Shown in pieces: positions 2,379 to 64,000 of a DNA stretch of 64,000 nucleotides; the stretch's first letter is position 1, and every line of letters starts with the position of its first letter. A program made the translations under genes and the position numbers. The notes under the pieces were generated by a model. It was not told the origin of the DNA, made no database searches, and was given only the letters and a program-made list of their open reading frames with translations. Origin of the DNA: Anabaena sp. PCC 7108 (GTDB lineage: Bacteria; Cyanobacteriota; Cyanobacteriia; Cyanobacteriales; Nostocaceae). The stretch covers positions 1,151,465 to 1,215,464 of the forward strand of contig NZ_KB235896.1 of the NCBI RefSeq assembly GCF_000332135.1, read 5' to 3'.

Positions 2379-4089
2379 TTTGCGGTTGTCCCCAAATGAT
2401 GGTTTCTTGTTTATAAATTACAAGTCCTGGTTTAGTGCCTTTGGGTTTGTAGACGTGCTTGGGTTGGGTGTAAACTACTGGTACTTGGTCACTTTGACGG
2501 GCGCGACTGAAGTAAGCTGCAAGATTAGCAGTAAATTGTAAATCGGCTTCTTCCGGGACTTTACCAGGTTCCAGACGCAATAAAACATGACTACCAGGAA
2601 TTTCTTGGGCGTGAAACCACAGATCATAATCTCCGGCTACACGAAATGTCAGTTGGTCATTTTGGTTATTATTGCGACCGATTAAGACTTCAAAACCGCT
2701 AGGAGTGCGGTAACGATGAAAATTAGTGCTGGGAGAGTCGGTAGTACTGCGGCTGCGATATTCCAGGGCTTCCAGATATTTTTGTCCAATTAGTTCATCA
2801 CGAATTTCTTCTAAAGCTTGTAAATCTGCTGCTGTTTGGTAGTTGTCGAGTTGGGAAATTGCGGCTTCTACTTGTTCCAAATAGTCAATTTCGGCTTGGA
2901 CTTCTAATAATAACGGTTCCACAGCAGCACGAGCGCGTTTGAGTTTTTGGTGCTGTTTATAAAGCTTCTGGGCGTTTTGGACGGCGTTTTTATCTGGAAG
3001 AAGTGCGATCGCAGTTGGTCTACCAGTTTCAAAATCTGCCAGGATAATTTCTTTCATCCCTGGTTCCCAGTTTTGCAGATACGCCATTAATAAATCAGCT
3101 TTTTGTCGATAATCTTCAGCCTGATCTGACTGCTGCAATTTCTCACTAAACGTTTGGGCTTTGGTGCGTAATTTGCCGAGAATATTATTCAGTTTCTGAA
3201 TCAACTGATGGCGTAGTTGAGAAAATAACTGTTTATTTAACTCATCGCTGTAATATTTATTCAGTAACTCTTGGATATTTTTAACTGGTGCGACAACACC
3301 CCAACCCATGACAGTATAACCAGTTGCTGTCCAACCTGGTTGGAATTTACCAGATTCTAGCGCTTTTAACCATTCTTGCCAATGTGCAAATAGCCGCTGC
3401 CAATCATCAGTATTTAGTGTATCTGTGGTTTTTTCTGGTGCTATATCCGCTGCCAACAACATTGTATCTAGCAAAGCTGCACTCAAACCACGATAATTTT
3501 TGAGTAGTTGCCGTTTAATAGCGCCTGGTACTAAACTAACTCGTTCTTGCCAACGTGCTTGGGATTCGCTCAAACTGGGGATAGGACCAGTCTGCTTGGG
3601 TGGTATTTCATAAGGTTGTCCGGTTTGGATAGGACGAACGCTGGATTGTTGCTGACTAACTTGATGAGCAGCGGTGATAATAAAATTGTCGGCATCGGTG
3701 AGAATGGCGTTACTATATTTGCCCATCACTTCTACATACAAGTGATAGAGGGCGCTTTCACCGGGACGACGAGCAAATTGTAAATCAATGACACGTTCCC
3801 AAGGTGCGATCGCTTCAATTGCTACTAAGGCTAAACCACCCAATTGATGGATTAATTGCTGACTGAAGGTGAAAGTATCTGGTATGCGTGGTGGTGGTTC
3901 ACCAATACAAATGCGGGTAGCTTGGGGATGCCAAGATACTTCTAGCCAAACCCGTTGTTTTAGGGTACGTAAGGCTATGGCAATAGTATAGCGATCGCGC
4001 TGGTAAACCTGCTCTATCCGCGAAGGTAGCCAGTCAGCCCGTAGTTCGCTACAAGCCGCAGTGAGGGTAGTAAAATCAACTGGTTGCAA
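2362..4089 (-). CDS. rqcH: NFACT-family ribosome quality-control protein (RqcH/Rqc2 homologue)
   Basis: Homologue of the fibronectin-binding A/NFACT family. In bacteria RqcH binds stalled 50S-peptidyl-tRNA complexes and directs C-terminal alanine tailing. The N-terminal NFACT-N domain begins MQPVDFTTLTAA, a central coiled coil covers roughly residues 285-425, and the C-terminal NFACT-R domain carries GFEVLIGRNNNQND and WFHAQEIPGSHVLL. The 575-aa length is typical. The start used is TTG at 4089, because the conserved N-terminus begins there and no ATG/GTG fits. The last codons and the stop lie inside a heptamer repeat. It is transcribed alone. Confidence 0.88.
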   Translation of the reverse strand: MQPVDFTTLTAACSELRADWLPSRIEQVYQRDRYTIAIALRTLKQRVWLEVSWHPQATRICIGEPPPRIPDTFTFSQQLIHQLGGLALVAIEAIAPWERVIDLQFARRPGESALYHLYVEVMGKYSNAILTDADNFIITAAHQVSQQQSSVRPIQTGQPYEIPPKQTGPIPSLSESQARWQERVSLVPGAIKRQLLKNYRGLSAALLDTMLLAADIAPEKTTDTLNTDDWQRLFAHWQEWLKALESGKFQPGWTATGYTVMGWGVVAPVKNIQELLNKYYSDELNKQLFSQLRHQLIQKLNNILGKLRTKAQTFSEKLQQSDQAEDYRQKADLLMAYLQNWEPGMKEIILADFETGRPTAIALLPDKNAVQNAQKLYKQHQKLKRARAAVEPLLLEVQAEIDYLEQVEAAISQLDNYQTAADLQALEEIRDELIGQKYLEALEYRSRSTTDSPSTNFHRYRTPSGFEVLIGRNNNQNDQLTFRVAGDYDLWFHAQEIPGSHVLLRLEPGKVPEEADLQFTANLAAYFSRARQSDQVPVVYTQPKHVYKPKGTKPGLVIYKQETIIWGQPQIIRNS

Positions 4090-4195
4090 AACGATTAGTC
4101 ACAATAGGGGAGTTTTTCCATCAAGAAGCCAACAGCCAAAAACAAAACCGTTAAATACTCCGATTTCCTTCAGAATCATTCTAACGGTTAATATT

Positions 4196-4290
4196 GTGAC
4201 GTACTCCACACACTCCCTTTCAGGTAAGTGTGGGCTTCTCAGTGACTCTTCTATGAAGACATTAACTGAGCTTTAAGACCGTGCGCCCCA
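4196..4290 (-). mobile_element. Possible remnant of an IS200/IS605-type right end
   Basis: On the minus strand a hairpin of the form CCCACACT...AGTGTGTGG at about 4206-4233 ends in GGAGT, resembling the 3' ends of cyanobacterial TnpB elements. It follows a minus-strand reading frame of 83 codons (4251-4502) that I cannot match to TnpB with confidence. An inverted repeat (AACCGTTA / TAACGGTT, 4146-4153 and 4182-4189) lies nearby, in front of rqcH. The 4090-4536 gap otherwise shows only short palindromic, arginine-codon-rich repeats and no convincing gene. Confidence 0.3.
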
Positions 4291-4536
4291 CGGTTCTTCG
4301 GTTTTGAGATTTGTTTTTTTGTTTTGTAGGCTGCATTTGGAGCATTTAATTGGACTACACCTACGCTCTCATAATAACATAAAATCAATATTTTGTACTC
4401 GCAGGGCGAGAAGCAAGCTACGTTTCGTCGCTGTAGCCTTAGAAAGTTTTCGCTACGCTCAAATACAATTTGTGCTACGCAACTCAACTCACGCGCATTC
4501 ATCTCATCAGTAGGTGAGAGGCTTCTGCTTATTAAG

Positions 4537-5322
4537 CTAAACAGCTACTTTCTTTTTTTTACTCACAGCCGCGCCTATAGTAGCCGCCAAGAATATACCA
4601 CCTAACATCCCAGGTTCTGGAACAGATTCTGATTGTGGTGAAGTTCCGACTTTAATTTGAAAAGCCAAGTTAGAACGAGATGGTGCAGCACCTACCCAAC
4701 TTAATGCTGTTTTCCCAGTTAAAGTAAATGGTGAGGAAATATTACTCAAACCCAAGTAATCTACATCTTTACTGGTTGATGTACTCGCAGAAGCTAGACT
4801 ACCAACAGATGTACCGTTGAATACTAAGTCAGTCAAAGAGACCGCATTTTGCAAATTACTAGTATTACCTTTATTAGCAAACGTGCGTAAATAAATCTGG
4901 TTAACAGGTCCGCTAAATTCTTGAGAGGTTAATGATATGGTTTGGTTCCCATCAAGAACTTTATAAGTTACCTTACTTCCATCGTATTCCAAGCTAAAAT
5001 CCCATAGCTTCCCATTACCCCAGGTAAAATTACCTTGAGCTACAGGTGCGCCACCAATAGCTACATCTTTGTTGATACCTAATTCTCGCTCTCCATTTCC
5101 ACCAGTACCATTATTCCCGATTCTTCCTTCAGCAACAAATAATTCTTTAAAATCCCCGTTGTTAAGCAAGAGATTAAAATCTGCATCATCAAACCCTGGG
5201 GTAGCATCTTGAGATGTTAAAGGCGTAAATGTCACTGCTTTTGCTTGATTTGGAGCGAGTCCTAACCCCAATGTTACCAATCCCAAAACCAGAAGAGGTT
5301 TATATTTATGTATAGATAGCAT
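4537..5322 (-). CDS. PEP-CTERM sorting-domain exported protein
   Basis: Secreted protein with an N-terminal signal peptide (residues 1-29, hydrophobic LLVLGLVTLGLGLAP). A C-terminal PEP-CTERM signal follows: VPEPG, a hydrophobic span (GIFLAATIGAA) and a basic tail (SKKKK). Such tails are recognised by exosortases, which sort proteins to the envelope or exopolysaccharide. The middle of the protein is beta-rich and repeats no recognisable catalytic domain. ATG start at 5322. It stands alone, with a 260-bp upstream region before the zinc-ribbon gene. Its function beyond export is unknown. Confidence 0.85.
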   Translation of the reverse strand: MLSIHKYKPLLVLGLVTLGLGLAPNQAKAVTFTPLTSQDATPGFDDADFNLLLNNGDFKELFVAEGRIGNNGTGGNGERELGINKDVAIGGAPVAQGNFTWGNGKLWDFSLEYDGSKVTYKVLDGNQTISLTSQEFSGPVNQIYLRTFANKGNTSNLQNAVSLTDLVFNGTSVGSLASASTSTSKDVDYLGLSNISSPFTLTGKTALSWVGAAPSRSNLAFQIKVGTSPQSESVPEPGMLGGIFLAATIGAAVSKKKKVAV

Positions 5323-5516
5323 AGTTTTACGTAGTATTACTTAAATGATTAATTGCTCTACTAAATAAAATATTAGCAAGTTAAAACCTATGTTTTACGA
5401 GCTTTAAATAAACATTACCTGCTTTTCATCGAAATTTTATAATGTATAAATTATTGCGCTTATTTCTCTTTAGCACTGTTGTTATCTTCAGGTCTTTCAC
5501 GTCATAAAAAGACGCA

Positions 5517-5548
5517 AAACCCAGAAATTGTGTTGAATTTCTGGGTTT
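5517..5548 (-). terminator. Strong intrinsic terminator after the glycosyltransferase/zinc-ribbon unit
   Basis: A perfect 13-bp stem (AAACCCAGAAATT / AATTTCTGGGTTT) with a 6-nt loop, followed on the minus strand by TTTT. It lies 36 bp after the stop of the 90-aa zinc-ribbon gene. Confidence 0.75.
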
Positions 5549-5583
5549 AATCTAGTAAAAATTTCCGGCTTTTAGTTAATAGC

Positions 5584-5856
5584 TCATTGCCAGGGTGAAG
5601 GGATAGCTGTGGTTGAAATCACTGTTTCTGCCATCAGTCTTAAAGCTGTTCTACCACAACTGGGGCATTGAATTTCTAGGAACTGTGAAGATGATACGTC
5701 TACTTCACTCAACAGACCTTGTTTACAATGCCAACACTCAAAAATTACTCGACTAACTGGTTGGTTACAATCTAATATCTTGATATGTTGAGAAGTCGTT
5801 GCTTCAGTTTCTGGTTTTCTGGGCTTAGGAAATTTTTTGAGTTCTTGAACTTCCAT
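5584..5856 (-). CDS. Small zinc-ribbon protein of unknown function
   Basis: A 90-aa soluble protein with two CxxC pairs (CWHC and CPSC, about 24 residues apart) that would form one zinc ribbon. A basic, proline-containing N-terminus precedes it. Its ATG lies 29 bp after the stop of the upstream glycosyltransferase gene on the same strand, and a strong terminator follows. The two are therefore probably co-transcribed. I do not recognise a named family. A role in nucleic-acid or protein binding would be inference from the ribbon alone. Confidence 0.7.
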   Translation of the reverse strand: MEVQELKKFPKPRKPETEATTSQHIKILDCNQPVSRVIFECWHCKQGLLSEVDVSSSQFLEIQCPSCGRTALRLMAETVISTTAIPSPWQ

Positions 5857-9193: not shown

Positions 9194-11383
9194 TTAGATA
9201 GGTACAGACTGAGCGGTCAGCACAATGTATGCACCCCAAGCTAGGGCAGCAACTGCCAATACGGTAGACCAAATCGGATGGGGACTATTAATAGTTTTGC
9301 CAGTTTGAGTTTCTAAAGTTTGAATATCAATCCAAGGTGTTGCTCCTCGACGTAACCAACCTGTGACTATAATCTGTCTACCAATCCATTCTTGGGGGTT
9401 GATTGGCTGTCCCAGCCAAGGAATATGATTTAATTTCACTAGACCTGTGTTAGATTCAAGGGTTAGATCTTGTGCCAAAAAGTTACTTATGCCGCGACGG
9501 CCTAACAATTTACCAACAAGACGAACACTAACACTATCAATTGGTAAAACAGTGGGGTCACTTAAGAGGTTGGGTAGGTAGTAGTCAGTTTGCAAGGTTA
9601 AAGGTTTGATATCAGGAAAAAAGGCATTAATTCGCATGACTGTGCCGATGCTAAAGCCTATCATGAGGAAACCTGTGACGAAAGACCAATCATCATAGAT
9701 CCACTTGAGGTTGAGCAAATGTAGGGCAAATGCTGTTTGCCAAATTATCCAAAACAGACCGGCTAAGACAAAACCGAGGGGAATTCCCAACCAAGGTGAA
9801 ATTTGTAAGAGGAAGGACTGAGGCTTTACTGGACAGGACTCTTGACCAGTTAGATGTAGTTCGGTTTCTAGATGCCAATGACAAGCTATTTGGCAGAGAC
9901 GTTGAATGCGATCGCCCATTAAGGGGTGGCTATTATTAATAGTAAACCATCGCCGATAGGGATTGAAGTTTTCCCACATGAAGAATGATTCAAAGGGAAG
10001 ATGATTTGCCATACTTCCCAAAGACAGGCTTTGTTGATAGCTGATTGGGGCAAGGATATTGAGACTTTCCAATTGACGGCAAGTATGTTGTTGATTTTTG
10101 ATATCATCAGCAACGCCAATAGCAATTTTGAGTAAAGCCCGAATTAGTCCATTGGGATTTCCTGTAATTTCAGCAGCGTTGCGATCGCTATAATAAAGCC
10201 GAAACCGGGAGTGCAGCAATGCTGTACCAGTCAGTAAACACCAAATTCCATAAAAAAGACAAGTCAAACCTGTGGCCATCCAGTTCCAGATCGGCTGTGA
10301 TTCTTTGTTCCCCCATGCCGAGGCTTGCTGATATAATTCATAAAACGGTAGTGTCACCAGCAGCACCAAGGACATGACCATAAAATCCCATCTATCAATC
10401 TGCCCCAGTCCAAGGGCGTAAATAGTCGCTATTTCGTCATCAGCTAGTTGATCTAACAAACCCTGACTAACGACAATCCGGGCTGTATGAGGTAGATTGC
10501 CGTAGGTCAACATTATTGGTGCGGCCATTGGCAAAATTCGCAGTTTGACAACAGGCCAGTGTCGCTGTTGATAAGTCCGTTGAATGACACGGACTGCTTC
10601 ACGACTGTGGGTGTTTAAGACTTCTTTGGACAACTGTTGTTGACCATAAAATGATGCTAGTAGCCAATCTAGCAACCAAGGAGACAGTCCGATTAAGACT
10701 AACAAACACACTAGTATAAGTGAACTAGGATCACTATATAAAAGTTGTAATGGCTTTAAATAGGGCAGTTTGTCTAAAATCAGGTTGATTAGACCCATTG
10801 AGAATCTGAGTATTGCTTGCAACACCCAAAACAGGGAGATAAATGTTCCTGCCGTCAGCAACATAGAAAGTGTTGACAGCATTAAGTTTGGCTTACGCAA
10901 AGGTTGCCATACCTTAGCGCGTCTAGCTTGCCGCCAATAAATGCTAGATGCTTCAGTTTTTCTACTTCCCCTAATACTCATGAAGCCTGTATTGGCTACG
11001 TATCTGTTATCAATATTCCTTTCTGGAATGGAATCTTGTGGCTTCTGTTGTGAGGAATTATTAACAGGGACAAATCCCGTCTCGGTGTTTTTGGCTTTTC
11101 TGTGCCGTTTCTGGCTTTTAATTAGGTGTTCGAGAGCGCGTTTTGCCCATTCTTGAACTTGCGAGTTACTACTCGATATCAGATTTTCACACAAAGCGAT
11201 CGCTTTTAAGGATTCGCCTGTGCGTGCATAAGCCATCACCAACCCAACTTTGGCTTGCAGGCAAGTATTACTCTGATTCTGGCTACTAGCAATAGGTTCG
11301 AGTTGAGTGATTGCTGCGTAGTAATTTCCTTCCTTGAGGGCAACTAAACCAGCCTCCAAAGATGATTCGGGGTGTGAAGGCAT
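9194..11383 (-). CDS. TPR plus membrane M48-like protein with a degenerate zinc site (predicted pseudoprotease)
   Basis: 729 aa. Residues 1-95 are TPR-like helices. Hydrophobic segments lie near 168-205, 220-245, 333-350, 368-392 and in the C-terminal third. Residues 255-470 align with the M48/HtpX fold (VVSQGLLDQLADDEIATIYA, then YYSDRNAAEITGNPNGLIRALLKI). Where M48 enzymes have HELGH, this protein has LGLGQ (residues 324-328). The third-ligand region reads RLYYSDR instead of an ExxAD-type motif. Both metal sites therefore look lost, so proteolysis is unlikely. The C-terminal OB-like segment (residues ~590-690) and last membrane span are extra to HtpX. Function is unknown; a membrane scaffold is one possibility. 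Confidence 0.75.
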   Translation of the reverse strand: MPSHPESSLEAGLVALKEGNYYAAITQLEPIASSQNQSNTCLQAKVGLVMAYARTGESLKAIALCENLISSSNSQVQEWAKRALEHLIKSQKRHRKAKNTETGFVPVNNSSQQKPQDSIPERNIDNRYVANTGFMSIRGSRKTEASSIYWRQARRAKVWQPLRKPNLMLSTLSMLLTAGTFISLFWVLQAILRFSMGLINLILDKLPYLKPLQLLYSDPSSLILVCLLVLIGLSPWLLDWLLASFYGQQQLSKEVLNTHSREAVRVIQRTYQQRHWPVVKLRILPMAAPIMLTYGNLPHTARIVVSQGLLDQLADDEIATIYALGLGQIDRWDFMVMSLVLLVTLPFYELYQQASAWGNKESQPIWNWMATGLTCLFYGIWCLLTGTALLHSRFRLYYSDRNAAEITGNPNGLIRALLKIAIGVADDIKNQQHTCRQLESLNILAPISYQQSLSLGSMANHLPFESFFMWENFNPYRRWFTINNSHPLMGDRIQRLCQIACHWHLETELHLTGQESCPVKPQSFLLQISPWLGIPLGFVLAGLFWIIWQTAFALHLLNLKWIYDDWSFVTGFLMIGFSIGTVMRINAFFPDIKPLTLQTDYYLPNLLSDPTVLPIDSVSVRLVGKLLGRRGISNFLAQDLTLESNTGLVKLNHIPWLGQPINPQEWIGRQIIVTGWLRRGATPWIDIQTLETQTGKTINSPHPIWSTVLAVAALAWGAYIVLTAQSVPI

Positions 11384-11399
11384 ACAAATTTTGGCAGGT

Positions 11400-11605
11400 A
11401 ATTGGGAAAAAGGTAATTGGGAAAAAGGTAATTGTAAAAAAAACGCTCATCTATGACCCATAACCCATGACCGAGACAATTTTAGATTTTGGATTGTTAG
11501 TCAAAATCTGAAATCTCAAAAAGGTTTCCAGCCCCTAGTTTCAACTATGGAACAAATCGAAAATCGTCAATCCAAAATCGTCAATCCAAAATCCAAAATC
11601 GATTG
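11400..11605. repeat. Cluster of AAAATC/GATTTT-type and AAAAGGTAATTGGG short repeats
   Basis: Between prfC and the M48-like gene. It contains GGTAATTGGGAAAAA twice (about 11397-11430) and several copies of CAATCCAAAATC with inverted GATTTTGGATTG, able to pair with each other. No gene is present. The same TTTTAGATTTTAGATT family recurs at 39543-39586 and 42735-42760. Confidence 0.6.
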
Positions 11606-11616
11606 ACCATTCCTTG

Positions 11617-13242
11617 TCAAAGAACTGTGTTCTGACTAGAAAATACTGGGGCAATGGCGCTTAAGTTTAACTCTGGATGATCTCCCTCTAACTGTTGGCA
11701 ATTCCATTCATTGCGGAATAACAGCACTGGTCGTCCCATGCTGTCTTTGACTGTTGTCGTGTTGAATAAACGTCCTACTTGATTCAACGCTTCCCAACCT
11801 CCTTCAACCCAACGGGCAACACTGTAGGGCAATAAATCTAATATGGTTTCCACTCCATATTCATTTTGTAGGCGAAACTGCACCACTTCAAATTGCAACT
11901 GACCGACTGCTGCTAAAATTGGATCTCGCTTGGCTTCATCAGTAGAGTACATAATTTGCACAGCACCCTCTTCCCTCAATTCGGAAACGCCTTTTTGAAA
12001 CTGCTTAAATTTTGAGGGATTGGGGTTTCTCAGAGTGGCAAATAGTTCTGGCGAAAAGTAAGGAATTCCCTCATATTCAAGTTTTTGCCCTGTGTAAATT
12101 GTATCGCCAATTGCAAAAACGCCGGGATTATTTAAACCAATTACATCACCTGGATAAGCCACATCAATGGATTCCCGTTCTTGGGCAAAGAGTTTTTGTG
12201 GTCGAGATAGACGGACAACCTTGCCAGTGCGAGCATGATTCACTGTCATATCTTTTTCAAACTTACCTGTGCAGACCCGGACAAAAGCCACACGATCTCT
12301 GTGCTTGGGGTCCATGTTAGCTTGTAGTTTGAAGACAAACCCTGAAAATTCTGGATAGCTAGGGGGAACTTCACCGACACTGCTACTATGTGTACCTGGT
12401 TTGAGAGCATAGTCCAGGAAGTACTTCAAAAATAACTCGACTCCAAAGTTAGTCATGGCGCTACCAAAGAACACAGGAGTCATTTTTCCTTGATGGACTA
12501 ACTCTAAATCTAAGTCTCCTCCTGCCCCTTCTAATAGCTCTAACTCGTCTTTAAGCTGATGGTAAAGGCTTTGTTCTAGTAATTCTTCAATTGAGCGATC
12601 GCCTAATTCGATGATGGTATCACGGGCTTCTTTGCTGCCGTGGGAGCTACGTTCAAAGAGATGGATTTGCTGTTGGTGGCGATCAAAAACACCTTTAAAG
12701 CGATCGCCCATTCCTATCGGCCAATTCACCGCATAAGTCTGTAATCCCAATTCTTGCTCAATCTCATCCAAAAGTTCTAAAGGTTCTCGTCCCGGACGGT
12801 CGAGTTTATTGACAAATGTAAAAATCGGAATACCTCTGAGTTTACACACTTCAAATAGTTTCCGGGTTTGAGGTTCCAATCCTTTCGCAGCATCTATCAG
12901 CATCACCGCATTATCAGCTGCTGCTAAAGTTCGATAGGTGTCTTCACTAAAATCTTGGTGTCCAGGAGTGTCTAGTAAATTAATTTGACAATTGCGGTAG
13001 ACAAATTGCAATACAGTGGAAGTAATGGAAATACCCCGTTGTTGTTCCATTGCCATCCAGTCAGAAGTCGCCTTCCGCTGCGCTCTGCGTGCTTTCACTG
13101 CCCCTGCTTCGTGAATTGCACCTCCGTATAATAATAGCTTTTCAGTTAGGGTAGTTTTACCAGCATCAGGATGAGAAATAATCGCAAAATTGCGACGTAA
13201 TTCCACTGCTTCTAACAATTCATTTTCAATTTCTGTGGACAT
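11617..13242 (-). CDS. prfC: Peptide chain release factor 3 (RF3)
   Basis: Translational GTPase that recycles RF1/RF2 from the ribosome after peptide release. The G domain has G1 [16 protein letters not shown], a switch region with [15 protein letters not shown]3 [12 protein letters not shown] and G4 NKLDR. Domains II and III follow with the RF3-specific [18 protein letters not shown]. The 541-aa length is typical. ATG start at 13242. It is monocistronic. The identity is clear. Confidence 0.95.
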
Positions 13243-55810: not shown

Positions 55811-58006
55811 ATGACTGCAATGATTAAGCCTGAAAACAACTGGAAAATACTTGAAGAAACCTGCTTAATTGCAGAACCGATTGAACAGAGTCATGTACCT
55901 ACGGACAAAGAAGCGATCGCATCTAACAGAGATTTCCGTATTGCTGATTATTGCCAAAACAGTAAATTTGGTAAATTATTACCTGATGCCTTTTACATTC
56001 ATGTATTAGCACTGCAAATACTTGACCCCTGGCTTCAGGAATATGAAAGCCGCGCCCGTATGATCGTACCGGAAGTAGAAGGAGCTACATTAGTTAAATT
56101 TAGTACTAATAAAGCCAAAATTTCTTATTTATTTTATCCTGATTTTGATACTGACCCTCATCCTGAATTACGAGCCAGTATTCAAGTTGATTTAGAAACC
56201 CATGAAGTTGGCTACCGCGATTACAGCGATTCAGCAAATCCCCCCATTTTGCACCGCAAAGAAACTTTTGTCACACCAGACTATCCCTTTTATCAACAGT
56301 TTGCAGCCCTAACCCGCGCACAAGAAGCTTTAGGATTACTGAATAATACCAGAGGAATTGGGACAAGAGAGGGTTGGGAAAAGCGGTTACAAGCTTATGG
56401 AGTGGAAATACAGGGACACAACCTGATTCAACGACAAATCACTAATACAGTAAATTTAACCCCAAAAATTGAGCGCCACAAAGCAGCAATTATTCGTCCT
56501 GATTTATCCCGTCCAGTTAGATTGGCCTTAGAATCTAGCTTATTTAGCCCAGAAACAAACTTTTTTGATTATGGTTGTGGACACGGTGGAGATGTCAGCC
56601 GGATTGCAGAACAAGGTTACATTAGCAGCGGTTGGGACCCTTTTTACTCTCCAAATACTCCCCGTACACCTGCGGAGATTGTCAATATTGGTTTTGTAAT
56701 TAATGTTATCGAAGACCAAAGTGAACGCCGGGAAGCTTTAATACAAGCTTGGGAACTAACTCAGAAAGTGCTGCTAGTAGCCGCCCAAGTGTTAATAGCT
56801 GATATTAAACGCGGTGTAATTGCTTATGGTGATGGAGTAATTACTAGACGAAACACATTTCAGAAATATTATGAACAAGAAGAATTAAAAATTTACATTG
56901 ATCAAGTGTTAGGAGTTGATGCAATTCCCGTGGCTTTGGGCGTTTACTTTGTGTTTCGGGATGAAGCTGAAGCACAGTTATTTAGGTCTTCGCGCTTCCG
57001 TTCTCGTGCTAGTACTCCAAGAATACGTGCTTGTGTGAGGCGGTTTGAAGAACATCAGCAACTGTTAGCGCCTTTGATGGCTTTTATGACGGAACGAGGA
57101 AGACTTCCTAGTAAGGGGGAATTGTCTCAAGAAGTGGAAATTTGTACAGAATTTGGTAGTTTACGGCGTGCCTTTAGTGTAATTATACAGGCGACGGACT
57201 CTGAAGAATGGGAAGCGATCGCAGACAAACGCCGTCAAGATTTGATGGTTTATTTAGCGCTGTGTAACTTTAGTCGTCGTCCCAGATTAGGACAATTAGC
57301 CCCAGCGGTACAAGAGGATATAGTTAGTTTATATAGTACTTATAAACAAGCTTGTTTAGATGCTGATCAAATGTTACGCAGTCTGGGGAATACAGAACTA
57401 ATTATTAAAAGTTGTCAAGAAAGCAAAATAGGTAAAAAATTACCTAATTCCCTTTGGGTGCATATTTCTGCATTACAATCTGTTGATCCTTTACTGCGTC
57501 TTTATGAAGGTTGTGCTAGTAGGACAATTGGGCGTTTAGAAGTAGCAAATGTGATTAAATTTCATATTCAAACACCCAAAATTTCTTATTTGTTTTATCC
57601 TGATTTTGATATTGATCCTCATCCAATTTTATCAAAAGTGATGACAATTGATTTGCGAGATTTACACGTTACTTATCAAGACTATGATCTTGAAGATGAT
57701 CCACCAATATTACACCAAATAGATGCTTTAGTGACTCCAGATTATCCCCAATATGAGAAATTTGCTAAATTAACTCTTCAAGAACAAGACTGGGGACTTT
57801 TGGATGATTGGCGGAGTATTCGTCGTCTTTCTGGTTGGAAACAATGTTTAAAAGAAAATTGTGCTGTTCTCAATGGTTATAAGTTAACTTGGAGCAAAGA
57901 TTGTGATGCTTATAAATTGAAAATACTGAAGGCTGCTTTGAACTCTCGAAAAAGAAGGAAGAATGTATCTCACACAGAGGCGCAGAGTCGGAGAGAGGAG
58001 GAATAG
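55811..58006 (+). CDS. DNA phosphorothioation-associated putative methyltransferase with duplicated accessory domain
   Basis: 731 aa. Central class I SAM methyltransferase (residues ~215-390): RHKAAIIRPDLSRPVRLALE, motif I FFDYGCGHGGD, GWDPFYSP, and VNIGFVINVIEDQSERREAL. This matches the family annotated as dnd-associated methyltransferase. A ~157-residue domain occurs twice, at 49-205 and 536-692, with GK-LP near the start, KISYLFYPDFD-DPHP, PPILH and VTPDYP in each. No dnd or dpt genes are in the window, so it is an orphan. The tail HTEAQSRREEE is encoded by a dispersed repeat. ATG at 55811; an internal ATG follows at residue 4. Substrate unknown; DNA modification is inference. Confidence 0.82.
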   Translation: MTAMIKPENNWKILEETCLIAEPIEQSHVPTDKEAIASNRDFRIADYCQNSKFGKLLPDAFYIHVLALQILDPWLQEYESRARMIVPEVEGATLVKFSTNKAKISYLFYPDFDTDPHPELRASIQVDLETHEVGYRDYSDSANPPILHRKETFVTPDYPFYQQFAALTRAQEALGLLNNTRGIGTREGWEKRLQAYGVEIQGHNLIQRQITNTVNLTPKIERHKAAIIRPDLSRPVRLALESSLFSPETNFFDYGCGHGGDVSRIAEQGYISSGWDPFYSPNTPRTPAEIVNIGFVINVIEDQSERREALIQAWELTQKVLLVAAQVLIADIKRGVIAYGDGVITRRNTFQKYYEQEELKIYIDQVLGVDAIPVALGVYFVFRDEAEAQLFRSSRFRSRASTPRIRACVRRFEEHQQLLAPLMAFMTERGRLPSKGELSQEVEICTEFGSLRRAFSVIIQATDSEEWEAIADKRRQDLMVYLALCNFSRRPRLGQLAPAVQEDIVSLYSTYKQACLDADQMLRSLGNTELIIKSCQESKIGKKLPNSLWVHISALQSVDPLLRLYEGCASRTIGRLEVANVIKFHIQTPKISYLFYPDFDIDPHPILSKVMTIDLRDLHVTYQDYDLEDDPPILHQIDALVTPDYPQYEKFAKLTLQEQDWGLLDDWRSIRRLSGWKQCLKENCAVLNGYKLTWSKDCDAYKLKILKAALNSRKRRKNVSHTEAQSRREEE
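57970..57999. repeat. Dispersed CACAGAGGCGCAGAG repeat forming the methyltransferase C-terminus
   Basis: The last ~11 codons of the methyltransferase gene read through ACACAGAGGCGCAGAGTCGG and AGAGAGGAGG, related to GACGCAGAGGCGCAAAG in the hemB terminator loop. Confidence 0.6.
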
Positions 58007-58019
58007 ATGTTTTGTTTTT

Positions 58020-58598
58020 TCAAATTTCTTTTGCTAGTTTTATCCAATTTTCAAGTCCTTTTTTTGTGGGTATTCCTGAGTTGTTAAATGTCCAAATATC
58101 GCGTTTGTGTTGAATTCCATAACTAATGTGAATTGGTTGTTGGTTACTGTAAAAGTAAAGGGAATCAAAAGGTAGTTTATTTTGTAAAATCCATTCTACT
58201 AATTCTGTACTTGGTAAGTCTGTAATCAAGAAATCACAAGCTGCACCTAATCTTTCACAGTAGTATTTGCCATTTTTATTGATTTCATAGCTCATGTGTT
58301 GGTCGAGATTAGGAGCTACACGCCCATTTTTTCGACCTGTAATTGGGTCTTTTTTCTCTAGATATTTTTTTAGGTCTGGAGAACAAAATCCGTAGGTAAG
58401 TTGAAATTTTTCTCTTCCGAAATAATCTATAATTGGGTCAATGATAAATTTATTTAAATCTTCTAAAGCAGGAATTACTTCTGGTAAGTTTTGAGGATAG
58501 GGGTTGATATTTTGGGAATATTTCTGATAAGTTTGGGTACAGGTACAAAATTCTTCTAAAGTTAGATATTTACTGATTTTTATTTCTTTTATATTCAT
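58020..58598 (-). CDS. Peptidase M15-like (D-Ala-D-Ala carboxypeptidase fold) protein
   Basis: 192 aa, no signal peptide. The order of motifs fits the M15/VanY-like fold: ALEDLNKFIIDPIIDYFG, FQLTYGFCSPDL, then the putative zinc ligands His in NLDQHMSYEI and Asp in GAACDFLI, and a C-terminal His in PIHISYG. Phage endolysin-like and host proteins share this fold. The match is by motif order only. It is convergent with the methyltransferase gene, 13 bp between stops. The lack of export signal argues against a housekeeping wall enzyme. ATG at 58598. Confidence 0.55.
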   Translation of the reverse strand: MNIKEIKISKYLTLEEFCTCTQTYQKYSQNINPYPQNLPEVIPALEDLNKFIIDPIIDYFGREKFQLTYGFCSPDLKKYLEKKDPITGRKNGRVAPNLDQHMSYEINKNGKYYCERLGAACDFLITDLPSTELVEWILQNKLPFDSLYFYSNQQPIHISYGIQHKRDIWTFNNSGIPTKKGLENWIKLAKEI

Positions 58599-60468: not shown

Positions 60469-61038
60469 ATGAATGTTCAAGAACTTCTAACTAGGTATGC
60501 TAAAGGAGAAAGAAGCTTTCAAGGTATTGTATTACCGGAAGCAAACCTAGAAGGAGCTAACTTAGGTGGTGTAGACTTTGGTAGAGCCGATCTTAGAGGT
60601 GCTAACCTCACAGCAGCATCATTAAGTGGCGCTAATTTAAGCAAAGCCAATCTCCGAGGTGCAAAACTAGAACGAGCGTATCTATCTGAAGTTATTTTAT
60701 GTGGTGCAGATTTAACTCAAGCAACTCTCACCACTGCTCATCTAAATGAATCAGACTTAAGTGGTGCATCATTAAATGGTGTAAACTTGTGTGATGCTAA
60801 TTTACACATGGCATCAATCACATCAGCAAATTTGCAAGGTGCAAATCTGAGTGGTGCGAAAATGGGCGGAGTGCGGATGTGGAAAGCAAATTTGCAAGAT
60901 GCTAATTTAAGTGGGGCTGACTTAAGTGAAGCAAACTTGTGTGAAGTGAATTTAACAGGAGCTAATTTAGATGACACAGATATGAGTGAAACCTTCTTAA
61001 CAGGGGCGATTATGCCTGATGGGAGTATTCATAATTGA
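60469..61038 (+). CDS. Pentapeptide-repeat protein
   Basis: 189 aa built of about 30 A(N/D)LXX pentapeptides (ANLEGANLGGVDFGRADLRG and onward), predicted to form a right-handed quadrilateral beta helix. The first 25 residues (VQELLTRYAKGERSFQGIVL) are a short cap common in cyanobacterial members. Function is unknown. Probably co-transcribed with the tetR gene. Confidence 0.9.
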   Translation: MNVQELLTRYAKGERSFQGIVLPEANLEGANLGGVDFGRADLRGANLTAASLSGANLSKANLRGAKLERAYLSEVILCGADLTQATLTTAHLNESDLSGASLNGVNLCDANLHMASITSANLQGANLSGAKMGGVRMWKANLQDANLSGADLSEANLCEVNLTGANLDDTDMSETFLTGAIMPDGSIHN

Positions 61039-63215: not shown

Positions 63216-64000
63216 CTAAGTCCTTGCCGCACCACTACACACAACCCGAAAACCGACAACGGCGCTGAAGCCGAAGAGGAAGTTGACGCGAGAAGCAGAT
63301 CGGCAATACCCAGGATTGAAGCCCCACGAACCACCGCGCAGCATTCTTATATTACTATCTGTAGTAATATCTATCCATACGCTTTCATCCATAGGCGCAG
63401 CGTTATAACTATTATGCCCATGGTCTTGACACCATTCCCATACATTTCCGTGCATATCATATAGTCCAAAGTTATTGGCTACTTTAAAACTTCCTACTTC
63501 TGTTGTTTCTCCTCTATAACTTCCTTTAACTCCATTACCATAGATGTAGTTACCATCATAGTTAGCCAAATCTGTTGTAATTGTTTCCCCAAAGTGAAAT
63601 GGTGTGGTTGTTCCTGCACGACAAGCATATTCCCATTGTGCTTCACTTGGTAGGTGATACTCTCTCTTTGTATGGTTTGAGAGGCGTAAACAAAACTCAA
63701 CGGCATCATCCCAAGAAACACCCTCTACAGGGCGATTTGCTCCTTTAAAATAAGATGGGTCAGGATTGAGTTGTTTATTTGCTTTTTGAAAGTGACTAGC
63801 TACCTCTTGCCATTGTGCCTGGGTAACAGGATACTTACCCATAAAAAAGGGTTTTATAATTACTTCATGTTGGGGAGATTCACGTTTAAAATAATCTATT
63901 GTATATTGTTTACACAGTTTCTTGATTTCTTGATCGTCTGTTCCCATTTGGAATTCTCCACCTGGTATATATACCATTTCTAGGTTTATATCTTCAAATA
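63216..64000 (-). CDS. SUMF1/formylglycine-generating-enzyme-family protein, 5' end outside the window
   Basis: At least 253 aa: MVYIPGGEFQMGTDDQE, YPVTQAQWQEVA, NRPVEGVSWDDAVEFCLRLS, LPSEAQWEYACRAG, GNVWEWCQD, LRGGSWGFNPGYCRSASR and GFRVVCS. The frame stays open upstream of the ATG at 63977 to the window end (FEDINLEMVYIPGG), as in longer family members, so the real start is probably beyond 64000. Only one cysteine (CRSASR) is near the active-site region, so true formylglycine-generating activity is doubtful. Such domains often sit on kinases or caspase-like proteins. Confidence 0.85.
   Translation of the reverse strand, partial: FEDINLEMVYIPGGEFQMGTDDQEIKKLCKQYTIDYFKRESPQHEVIIKPFFMGKYPVTQAQWQEVASHFQKANKQLNPDPSYFKGANRPVEGVSWDDAVEFCLRLSNHTKREYHLPSEAQWEYACRAGTTTPFHFGETITTDLANYDGNYIYGNGVKGSYRGETTEVGSFKVANNFGLYDMHGNVWEWCQDHGHNSYNAAPMDESVWIDITTDSNIRMLRGGSWGFNPGYCRSASRVNFLFGFSAVVGFRVVCSGAART

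Follow-up and report, generated by a model that had tools for sequence, protein, structure and literature searches.

A putative methyltransferase of the phosphorothioation-associated family with two copies of an end domain, encoded apart from the dnd genes in Anabaena sp. PCC 7108, and its proposed partner

What does a methyltransferase of a phosphorothioation-associated family do when its gene lies far from the phosphorothioation genes of the same cell? The question is raised by a 64,000-nucleotide stretch of the Anabaena sp. PCC 7108 genome (C2:1151465-1215464, here called the window), in which one open reading frame (ORF) encodes a 731-residue protein with similar domains at its two ends. 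We think it probable, at roughly 0.7, that this protein serves the cell's DNA phosphorothioation (PT) system as a trans-encoded accessory methyltransferase, and that the product of the convergent neighbouring gene, here called P, is its partner. The features concerned are:

55811-58006, + strand: phosphorothioation-associated methyltransferase (TIGR04096), two-copy form, 731 residues (ORF, NCBIfam profile, model)
55937-56431, + strand: N-terminal end domain, residues 43-207, an extra copy relative to the TIGR04096 profile (profile, alignments, model)
56465-57010, + strand: class I S-adenosylmethionine (SAM) methyltransferase core, residues about 219-400, with FDYGCGHGGD as motif I and NVIE replacing motif IV
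57011-57400, + strand: connecting helices, at about residues 401-530 (read from the secondary structure of the model)
57401-57892, + strand: C-terminal end domain, residues 531-694 (profile, alignments, model)
58020-58598, - strand: P, 192 residues, without known family, proposed partner, convergent with the methyltransferase gene

The NCBIfam profile TIGR04096 (dnd_rel_methyl) matches the whole 731-residue protein at 866.7 bits, 5.8 times its cut-off of 150, and residues 219-694 correspond to profile positions 1-477 of 478. Pfam and PADLOC searches of the same protein gave no match. The initial annotation, made from the sequence alone, had described a SAM methyltransferase of the dnd-associated family, and the profile match, well over cut-off, bears this out; the gene product is probably a methyl-transferring enzyme of the TIGR04096 family. 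The profile spans only the core and the C-terminal domain; the window protein adds an N-terminal copy, as do most of the sampled cyanobacterial members.

The same annotation called the gene an orphan, a label that does not fit, since dndC, dndD, dndE and a dndB-like gene are present in the genome. DndC has a single match there (C2:5102309-5103643, 702 bits); its neighbours are DndD (724 bits), DndE (132 bits), a DGQHR/DndB-like protein (200 bits) and an HNH_2 protein. The methyltransferase, which is not one of the components A-E of DndABCDE, is encoded outside this cluster, about 3.9 Mb from dndC on the 5.71 Mb contig C2 (1.8 Mb the other way if the contig is circular). The statement that no dnd or ssp genes occur in the 64 kb holds for DndC and SspB/DUF4007, the other dnd, dpt and ssp families not having been searched in the window. 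In the relatives the single-copy homologues sit in the dnd cluster: in one of them (G336), dndB, C, D and E are followed by a single-copy methyltransferase (485 residues), and between flanks that match by eye the window's genome has the next flanking gene directly after dndE, with no methyltransferase in between. Because those flanks hold a single-copy methyltransferase in G336, the window gene is most simply the unlinked counterpart of a missing operon gene. No strong SspB/DUF4007 match exists in this genome; there is one weak match (36 bits, C2:2008723-2009463, a 278-residue frame outside the window), so the partner system here would be Dnd. A weak DUF4007 match with the same frame length recurs in G072, G074, G245 and G326. 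The HNH_2 protein beside dndB and dndC (312 residues, L054:12507-13445, on C2 of this genome) has similar counterparts near several other dnd clusters; we take its N-terminal part to resemble the sulfur-binding domain of PT-dependent nucleases.

Is this association general? We surveyed 386 genomes of the cyanobacterial phylum by profile searches that scored at most four candidates per genome, and the survey figures are counts among the matches listed. TIGR04096 exceeded its cut-off in 103 of the 386 genomes and DndC in 93; both families were found in 91, TIGR04096 only in 12, DndC only in 2 and neither in 281 (Fisher p 3.5e-72). Within the window's order (104 genomes) 90 had both, 5 the family only, 2 DndC only and 7 neither (p 1.2e-6); shared ancestry inflates both p values. 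This tracking of DndC, together with the dnd genes of the genome itself, supports the proposal of the initial annotation that the gene serves a distant phosphorothioation locus; its second branch, a stand-alone protein, is unsupported in a genome with its own dnd set. DUF4007 (SspB) exceeded its cut-off in 44 of the 386 genomes (36 at 150 bits or more), and strong matches occur in eight of the 12 genomes that have TIGR04096 without DndC over cut-off, adjoining the methyltransferase in four of the eight (G133, G170, G280 and G296). In a ninth of the 12, G060, a divergent DndC-like gene adjoins the methyltransferase. Since eight of the 12 DndC-less genomes carry SspB/DUF4007, the TIGR04096 family goes with Dnd and Ssp alike; the link to Dnd agrees with the family name, and those to Ssp and to P go beyond it. 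Ssp is described as a single-strand PT system (PMC8092258). In G383, stops interrupt all three of the genes for DndC, the methyltransferase and P.

The ends of the protein were claimed at the outset to be copies of one accessory domain. Taken alone, the N-terminal piece matches TIGR04096 positions 313-477 at residues 43-207 (174.9 bits) and is therefore a second copy of the last third of the profile. Across an ungapped alignment of 162 residues the two segments (about 43-207 and about 531-694) are 44% identical (E 1e-50), and a profile-profile alignment of 22 N copies against 20 C copies gives a probability of 100 (E 2.4e-75), so that sequence and profile-profile alignments both confirm the duplication. 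In the AlphaFold2 model the order of helices and strands is identical in the two end domains, at an offset of 487 residues. The arrangement is no peculiarity, two copies being the commoner architecture of the family. Judged by frame length across the 386 genomes (up to 540 residues, one copy; at least 640, two copies; calls verified on the DNA for the fetched loci only), the two-copy form is the majority in cyanobacteria, and single-copy forms, of about 480-530 residues, are found mostly within the window organism's own family. One genome, G197, holds both, a single-copy form in the dnd cluster and a two-copy form adjoining DUF4007. Two domains are present in 78 of 80 named loci, a biased figure because the alignment to which these loci are the best 80 of 519 matches was itself mostly of two-copy forms. 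In a midpoint-rooted tree built from 53 N copies, 53 C copies and 13 single domains one branch (97/96) separates all N from all C copies, so one old duplication suffices; nine of the single domains group beside the N copies, L068 (on a long branch) joins the N side and three go with the C copies. All six non-cyanobacterial plasmid proteins that were fetched have the N domain, core and C-terminal region, and in these proteobacterial proteins the C copy looks degenerate when the alignment is judged by eye. We accordingly rejected the idea that two copies are an oddity of the window's lineage, the form being the commoner one in cyanobacteria, the product of one old duplication, and present in Proteobacteria too.

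Another suggestion, that the two copies bind both strands of a modified palindrome, finds no support: two-copy forms also accompany the single-strand Ssp system, single-copy homologues occupy the dnd clusters of relatives, the C copy is apparently degenerate in Proteobacteria, and the end domains are acidic overall. A duplicated scaffold would account for a pseudo-symmetric pair around one core equally well. We also rejected a separate gene supplying the missing copy in single-copy genomes; the second match found there (profile positions about 5-90) is a different methyltransferase of about 284 residues. This type (L189:3190-4044, L190:2972-3826) resembles the start of the TIGR04096 core, has a second half that is HIT-like by eye in two examples, and is matched in most of the single-copy genomes scanned, whereas the window's genome has no such match. 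Methyltransferase ORFs of 890-999 residues also occur (in L062, in the region of 10948-11650, and in L132, L133 and L140), and the N-terminal extension of the one in L062 is 33% identical to part of the methyltransferase core.

Copy number goes with gene position. Among genes on the same contig as DndC in DndC genomes, 18 of 22 single-copy methyltransferase genes lie within 10 kb of DndC versus 4 of 25 two-copy genes; eight rows of intermediate frame length were excluded from this count. What, then, surrounds the methyltransferase genes? In the fetched loci, gene calls are mechanical ORFs and several functions were named by eye. Among the 80 named loci the fetched stretch contains SspB/C/D in ten, a divergent DndC in nine, and DndC, D and E in six, seven and seven; PT genes occur in 22 of the 80, or 23 if a DndD-like protein of 29% identity in L137 is counted. 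The methyltransferase gene is often head to head with sspB or with the divergent dndC. This divergent, shorter DndC-like protein (about 400 residues, 137 bits to TIGR03183), seen at L057:10302-11507 and in nine of the 80 named loci, is usually encoded head to head with the methyltransferase, and a normal dndCDE set is sometimes close by.

Family members share a fetched stretch with SspB/C/D at several loci besides these ten. In Trichormus variabilis ATCC 29413, DUF4007, a large protein, phosphoadenosine phosphosulfate (PAPS) reductase and DndB genes are head to head with a two-copy methyltransferase gene, and by annotation and gene size they include an SspB-C-D set; on plasmid pSYSM of Synechocystis PCC 6803 the methyltransferase is accompanied by DUF4007 and a cysteine desulfurase, and no PAPS reductase was seen there. 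The equation of DUF4007 with SspB, of a BrxC-like ATPase with SspC and of PAPS reductase with SspD follows PMC12839542, and PADLOC names the ATPase of L058 SspC (1471 bits). PT genes are present in the fetched stretches of four of the six non-cyanobacterial plasmids (Methylibium, Azospirillum, Methylobacterium and Pseudoalteromonas); those of Massilia and Piscinibacter showed none in the stretches fetched. The Pseudoalteromonas operon has the order methyltransferase-dndB-C-D-E, the Azospirillum locus the order cysteine desulfurase-DUF4007-large protein-PAPS reductase-two unknowns-FtsK/SpoIIIE-methyltransferase, and the Methylobacterium locus the order PAPS reductase-two unknowns-FtsK-methyltransferase. 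In Rhodococcus, dndABCDE, a methyltransferase and dnd-associated protein 4 are reported with evenly rising locus tags (PMC8416521).

Why propose P as a partner? The P gene converges on the methyltransferase gene with 13 bases between them. P was matched in 50 of the 386 genomes, 45 of them at 200 bits or more, and all 45 of these carry TIGR04096. A strong P match is present in 44 of 74 two-copy versus 1 of 26 single-copy genomes (G159, G016 and G383 were excluded from this comparison; G080 was counted as single-copy and the f8 genomes as two-copy); in the sole strong single-copy case, G167, P is broken by a stop, and in single-copy G019 the match is weaker, at 157 bits. Within 1 kb, with gaps measured between matches rather than gene ends, 21 P-methyltransferase pairs were found, P always being downstream on the opposite strand; in L145 and L147 it is on the other side of the methyltransferase. 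Viral contig L179 has SspB-SspC-SspD-P-methyltransferase all on one strand, and P is fused as the C-terminal part of the methyltransferase in the betaproteobacterial plasmids of Methylibium, Massilia and Piscinibacter and in viral contig L178. DUF4007, PAPS reductase, DUF262 and FtsK genes are near the Methylibium fusion. Fusion, operon and convergent neighbours in three lineages make it likely that P and the methyltransferase are a functional pair.

The P protein itself has no match in NCBIfam or PADLOC and none in Pfam at E 0.001; its family finds nothing better than E 0.69 among PDB sequences, and its model is of moderate quality (predicted local distance difference test, pLDDT, 76), with a best Foldseek match at E 0.62. 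P has cysteines, histidines and aspartates that are invariant in 24 aligned copies. A conserved G-A-A-C-D plus histidine pattern prompted the idea of an M15-type metallopeptidase (Hedgehog/DD-peptidase fold), which was dropped for want of a profile or fold match: the M15 model is absent from the Pfam matches of the 24 copies up to E 1, and a PF08291 search of the window's genome gave no match. Searches with P's own patterns found no match in viral contigs, though L178 and L179 carry P, and none in phage records.

The AlphaFold2 model of the methyltransferase, built from 85 aligned sequences, has a mean pLDDT of 89.7 and a predicted template-modelling score of 0.68. The core carries FDYGCGHGGD as motif I, and at the place that [DNS]PP[YFW] takes in DNA amino-methyltransferases it has an invariant NVxE; the [DNS]PP[YFW] motif occurs in none of the 85 aligned members, and no PC dipeptide is present in the window methyltransferase. 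By title, the best 50 of 1065 Foldseek matches in the PDB are all methyltransferases (small-molecule, peptide, tRNA or unassigned; identity 9-14%), with no DNA base methyltransferase among them. RedM, the bacillithiol methyltransferase NmbA, Trm9, CmoA and TehB have the Rossmann core in common with it (Foldseek E 1e-4 to 3e-3); at 9-14% identity and low TM-scores, likeness to these class I small-molecule and tRNA enzymes is too weak for inferring a substrate. A profile search matched the methyltransferase family to no PDB chain at E 0.01. On the model, the core is of the class I methyltransferase fold, a similarity sufficient for the class only and not for the substrate.

The family also reaches viruses. 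Contig L175 has SspB-C-D-methyltransferase, and in L177 the methyltransferase is near DndC-D-E. The whole methyltransferase as a single-sequence query found no relatives in viral contigs; the end-domain alignment found eight. The end domain stands alone in L176 and L168 and with a core in L181. The L168 record, a 485-kb uncultured phage, has the domain at 4001-4573 and a small separate methyltransferase about 0.4 kb on, at 5015-5692, which is only weakly like the TIGR04096 core (30% over 79 residues, E 6e-4). In the phage-like contig L181 (3296-5671, with phage-like neighbours) an HNH-like start, recognized by eye, is followed by the end domain, the methyltransferase core and further sequence. 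These occurrences show that the end domain can exist as a unit of its own, and they render a nucleic-acid substrate plausible, short of proof.

Several observations weigh against an accessory role in PT with P as partner. TIGR04096 is present in G016, G070 and G159, in which no DndC, DUF4007 or DndC-like gene was found (G159 has methyltransferase fragments only and G016 is incomplete); conversely, the DndC genomes G233 and G358 have no TIGR04096 over cut-off, and neither do seven of the 36 strong-DUF4007 genomes, of which six belong to a single family in a different class. The 74 two-copy genomes include 30 that lack P; among the genomes with a P match, G269 (23 bits) has no TIGR04096 and G185 only a sub-cut-off one, and a Nostoc plasmid has a distant relative of P in a region without an annotated PT gene. 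Strict pairing is further contradicted by a Geminocystis plasmid, where P is near DndB and cysteine desulfurase genes with no methyltransferase in the stretch. The viral contigs L168, L176, L180, L181 and L182 carry the domain or the core with no PT gene recognized in the stretch seen. Finally, a Salmonella Dnd system (IscS-DndBCDE-DndI) is reported to work in E. coli without this gene (PMC11662687), so the methyltransferase is not required for PT as such.

How might the protein act? Sequence comparison can be said to establish the family, the origin of the two end domains in a single old duplication, the association with both Dnd and Ssp, and the linkage to P, which is fused to the methyltransferase elsewhere. 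On the simplest view the trans-encoded gene would replace the single-copy homologue found in the dnd clusters of relatives. The methyltransferase and P would act together, with the end domains bracketing the catalytic core and presenting the substrate, and the methyl group might be placed on PT-marked DNA or on another target at PT sites, giving a second mark that could regulate, protect or aid recognition of modified self DNA. DNA at or near PT sites is a tentative choice of substrate. An unlikely one is a protein belonging to the PT or restriction machinery; methylation of DndE, SspB or an HNH nuclease, for instance, would regulate PT or self-toxicity. The general class I core fold, the overall acidity of the end domains and the family's company with two biochemically different PT systems are compatible with such a target, but DndCDE and SspBCD share no obvious protein except sulfur-transfer enzymes, and some phage versions lie in stretches without a recognized PT gene.

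Could the enzyme instead be a canonical DNA base methyltransferase (N6-adenine, N4- or C5-cytosine) riding with PT systems as an extra restriction-modification component? Phage contigs that carry the core, one of them with it joined to the HNH-like part, fit a role in DNA modification, and HNH genes lie near several dnd loci. We nevertheless consider it improbable, given the missing [DNS]PP[YFW] motif and PC dipeptide, the lack of such an enzyme by title among the best 50 structural matches, and the absence of Pfam and PADLOC matches. That the enzyme is free-standing and unrelated to PT, its co-occurrence resulting from shared ancestry and the large size of cyanobacterial genomes, would suit the finding that 56 of 61 two-copy genes in DndC genomes are on another contig (fragmented assemblies included) or more than 110 kb away. 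This seems very improbable, for the association persists within the order, the operons recur in Proteobacteria and viral contigs, Ssp is present in eight of the 12 genomes without DndC, and in G383 the gene has decayed jointly with dndC. A bolder version of an action on PT-DNA is that the methyltransferase S-methylates the phosphorothioate and P resolves the resulting labile S-methyl triester, the pair being dedicated to erasing the sulfur mark or to PT-directed cutting. The PT linkage as the common product of double- and single-strand systems and the fixed partner P fit weakly, as does a thiol S-methyltransferase among the top structural matches; we regard this as quite improbable.

Accounts of PT systems name sulfur-writing enzymes together with nucleases. 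Should the methyltransferase and P act on PT-DNA, the sulfur mark would gain a second layer; were they an eraser, their target would be a PT group that has already been made. Neither the methyltransferase, found in 91 of 93 DndC genomes, nor P has a PADLOC model, and the T. variabilis ATCC 29413 locus makes the coupling to PT testable. The family name and the link to Dnd are already known from NCBIfam. The link to Ssp (SspABCD, with SspFGH or SspE), the split between operon and dispersed genes and the partner P appear to be new within the open-licence PMC literature, P itself having been searched for by sequence only. No study of TIGR04096 function was found in that literature by accession or by phrases for a PT-associated methyltransferase. 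The accession has 0 occurrences in the available text of the main Dnd reappraisal (PMC10853773), and the partial-profiling work, as far as its available text goes, names TIGR04062 and TIGR04095 and not TIGR04096 (PMC3226654). The paper reporting that dndFGH are absent in cyanobacteria does not use the word methyltransferase in its main text (PMC8569181).

Downstream of the pair, the window also encodes a pentapeptide-repeat-like protein (60469-61038) and a formylglycine-generating-enzyme-like protein (63216-63977), both named by eye.

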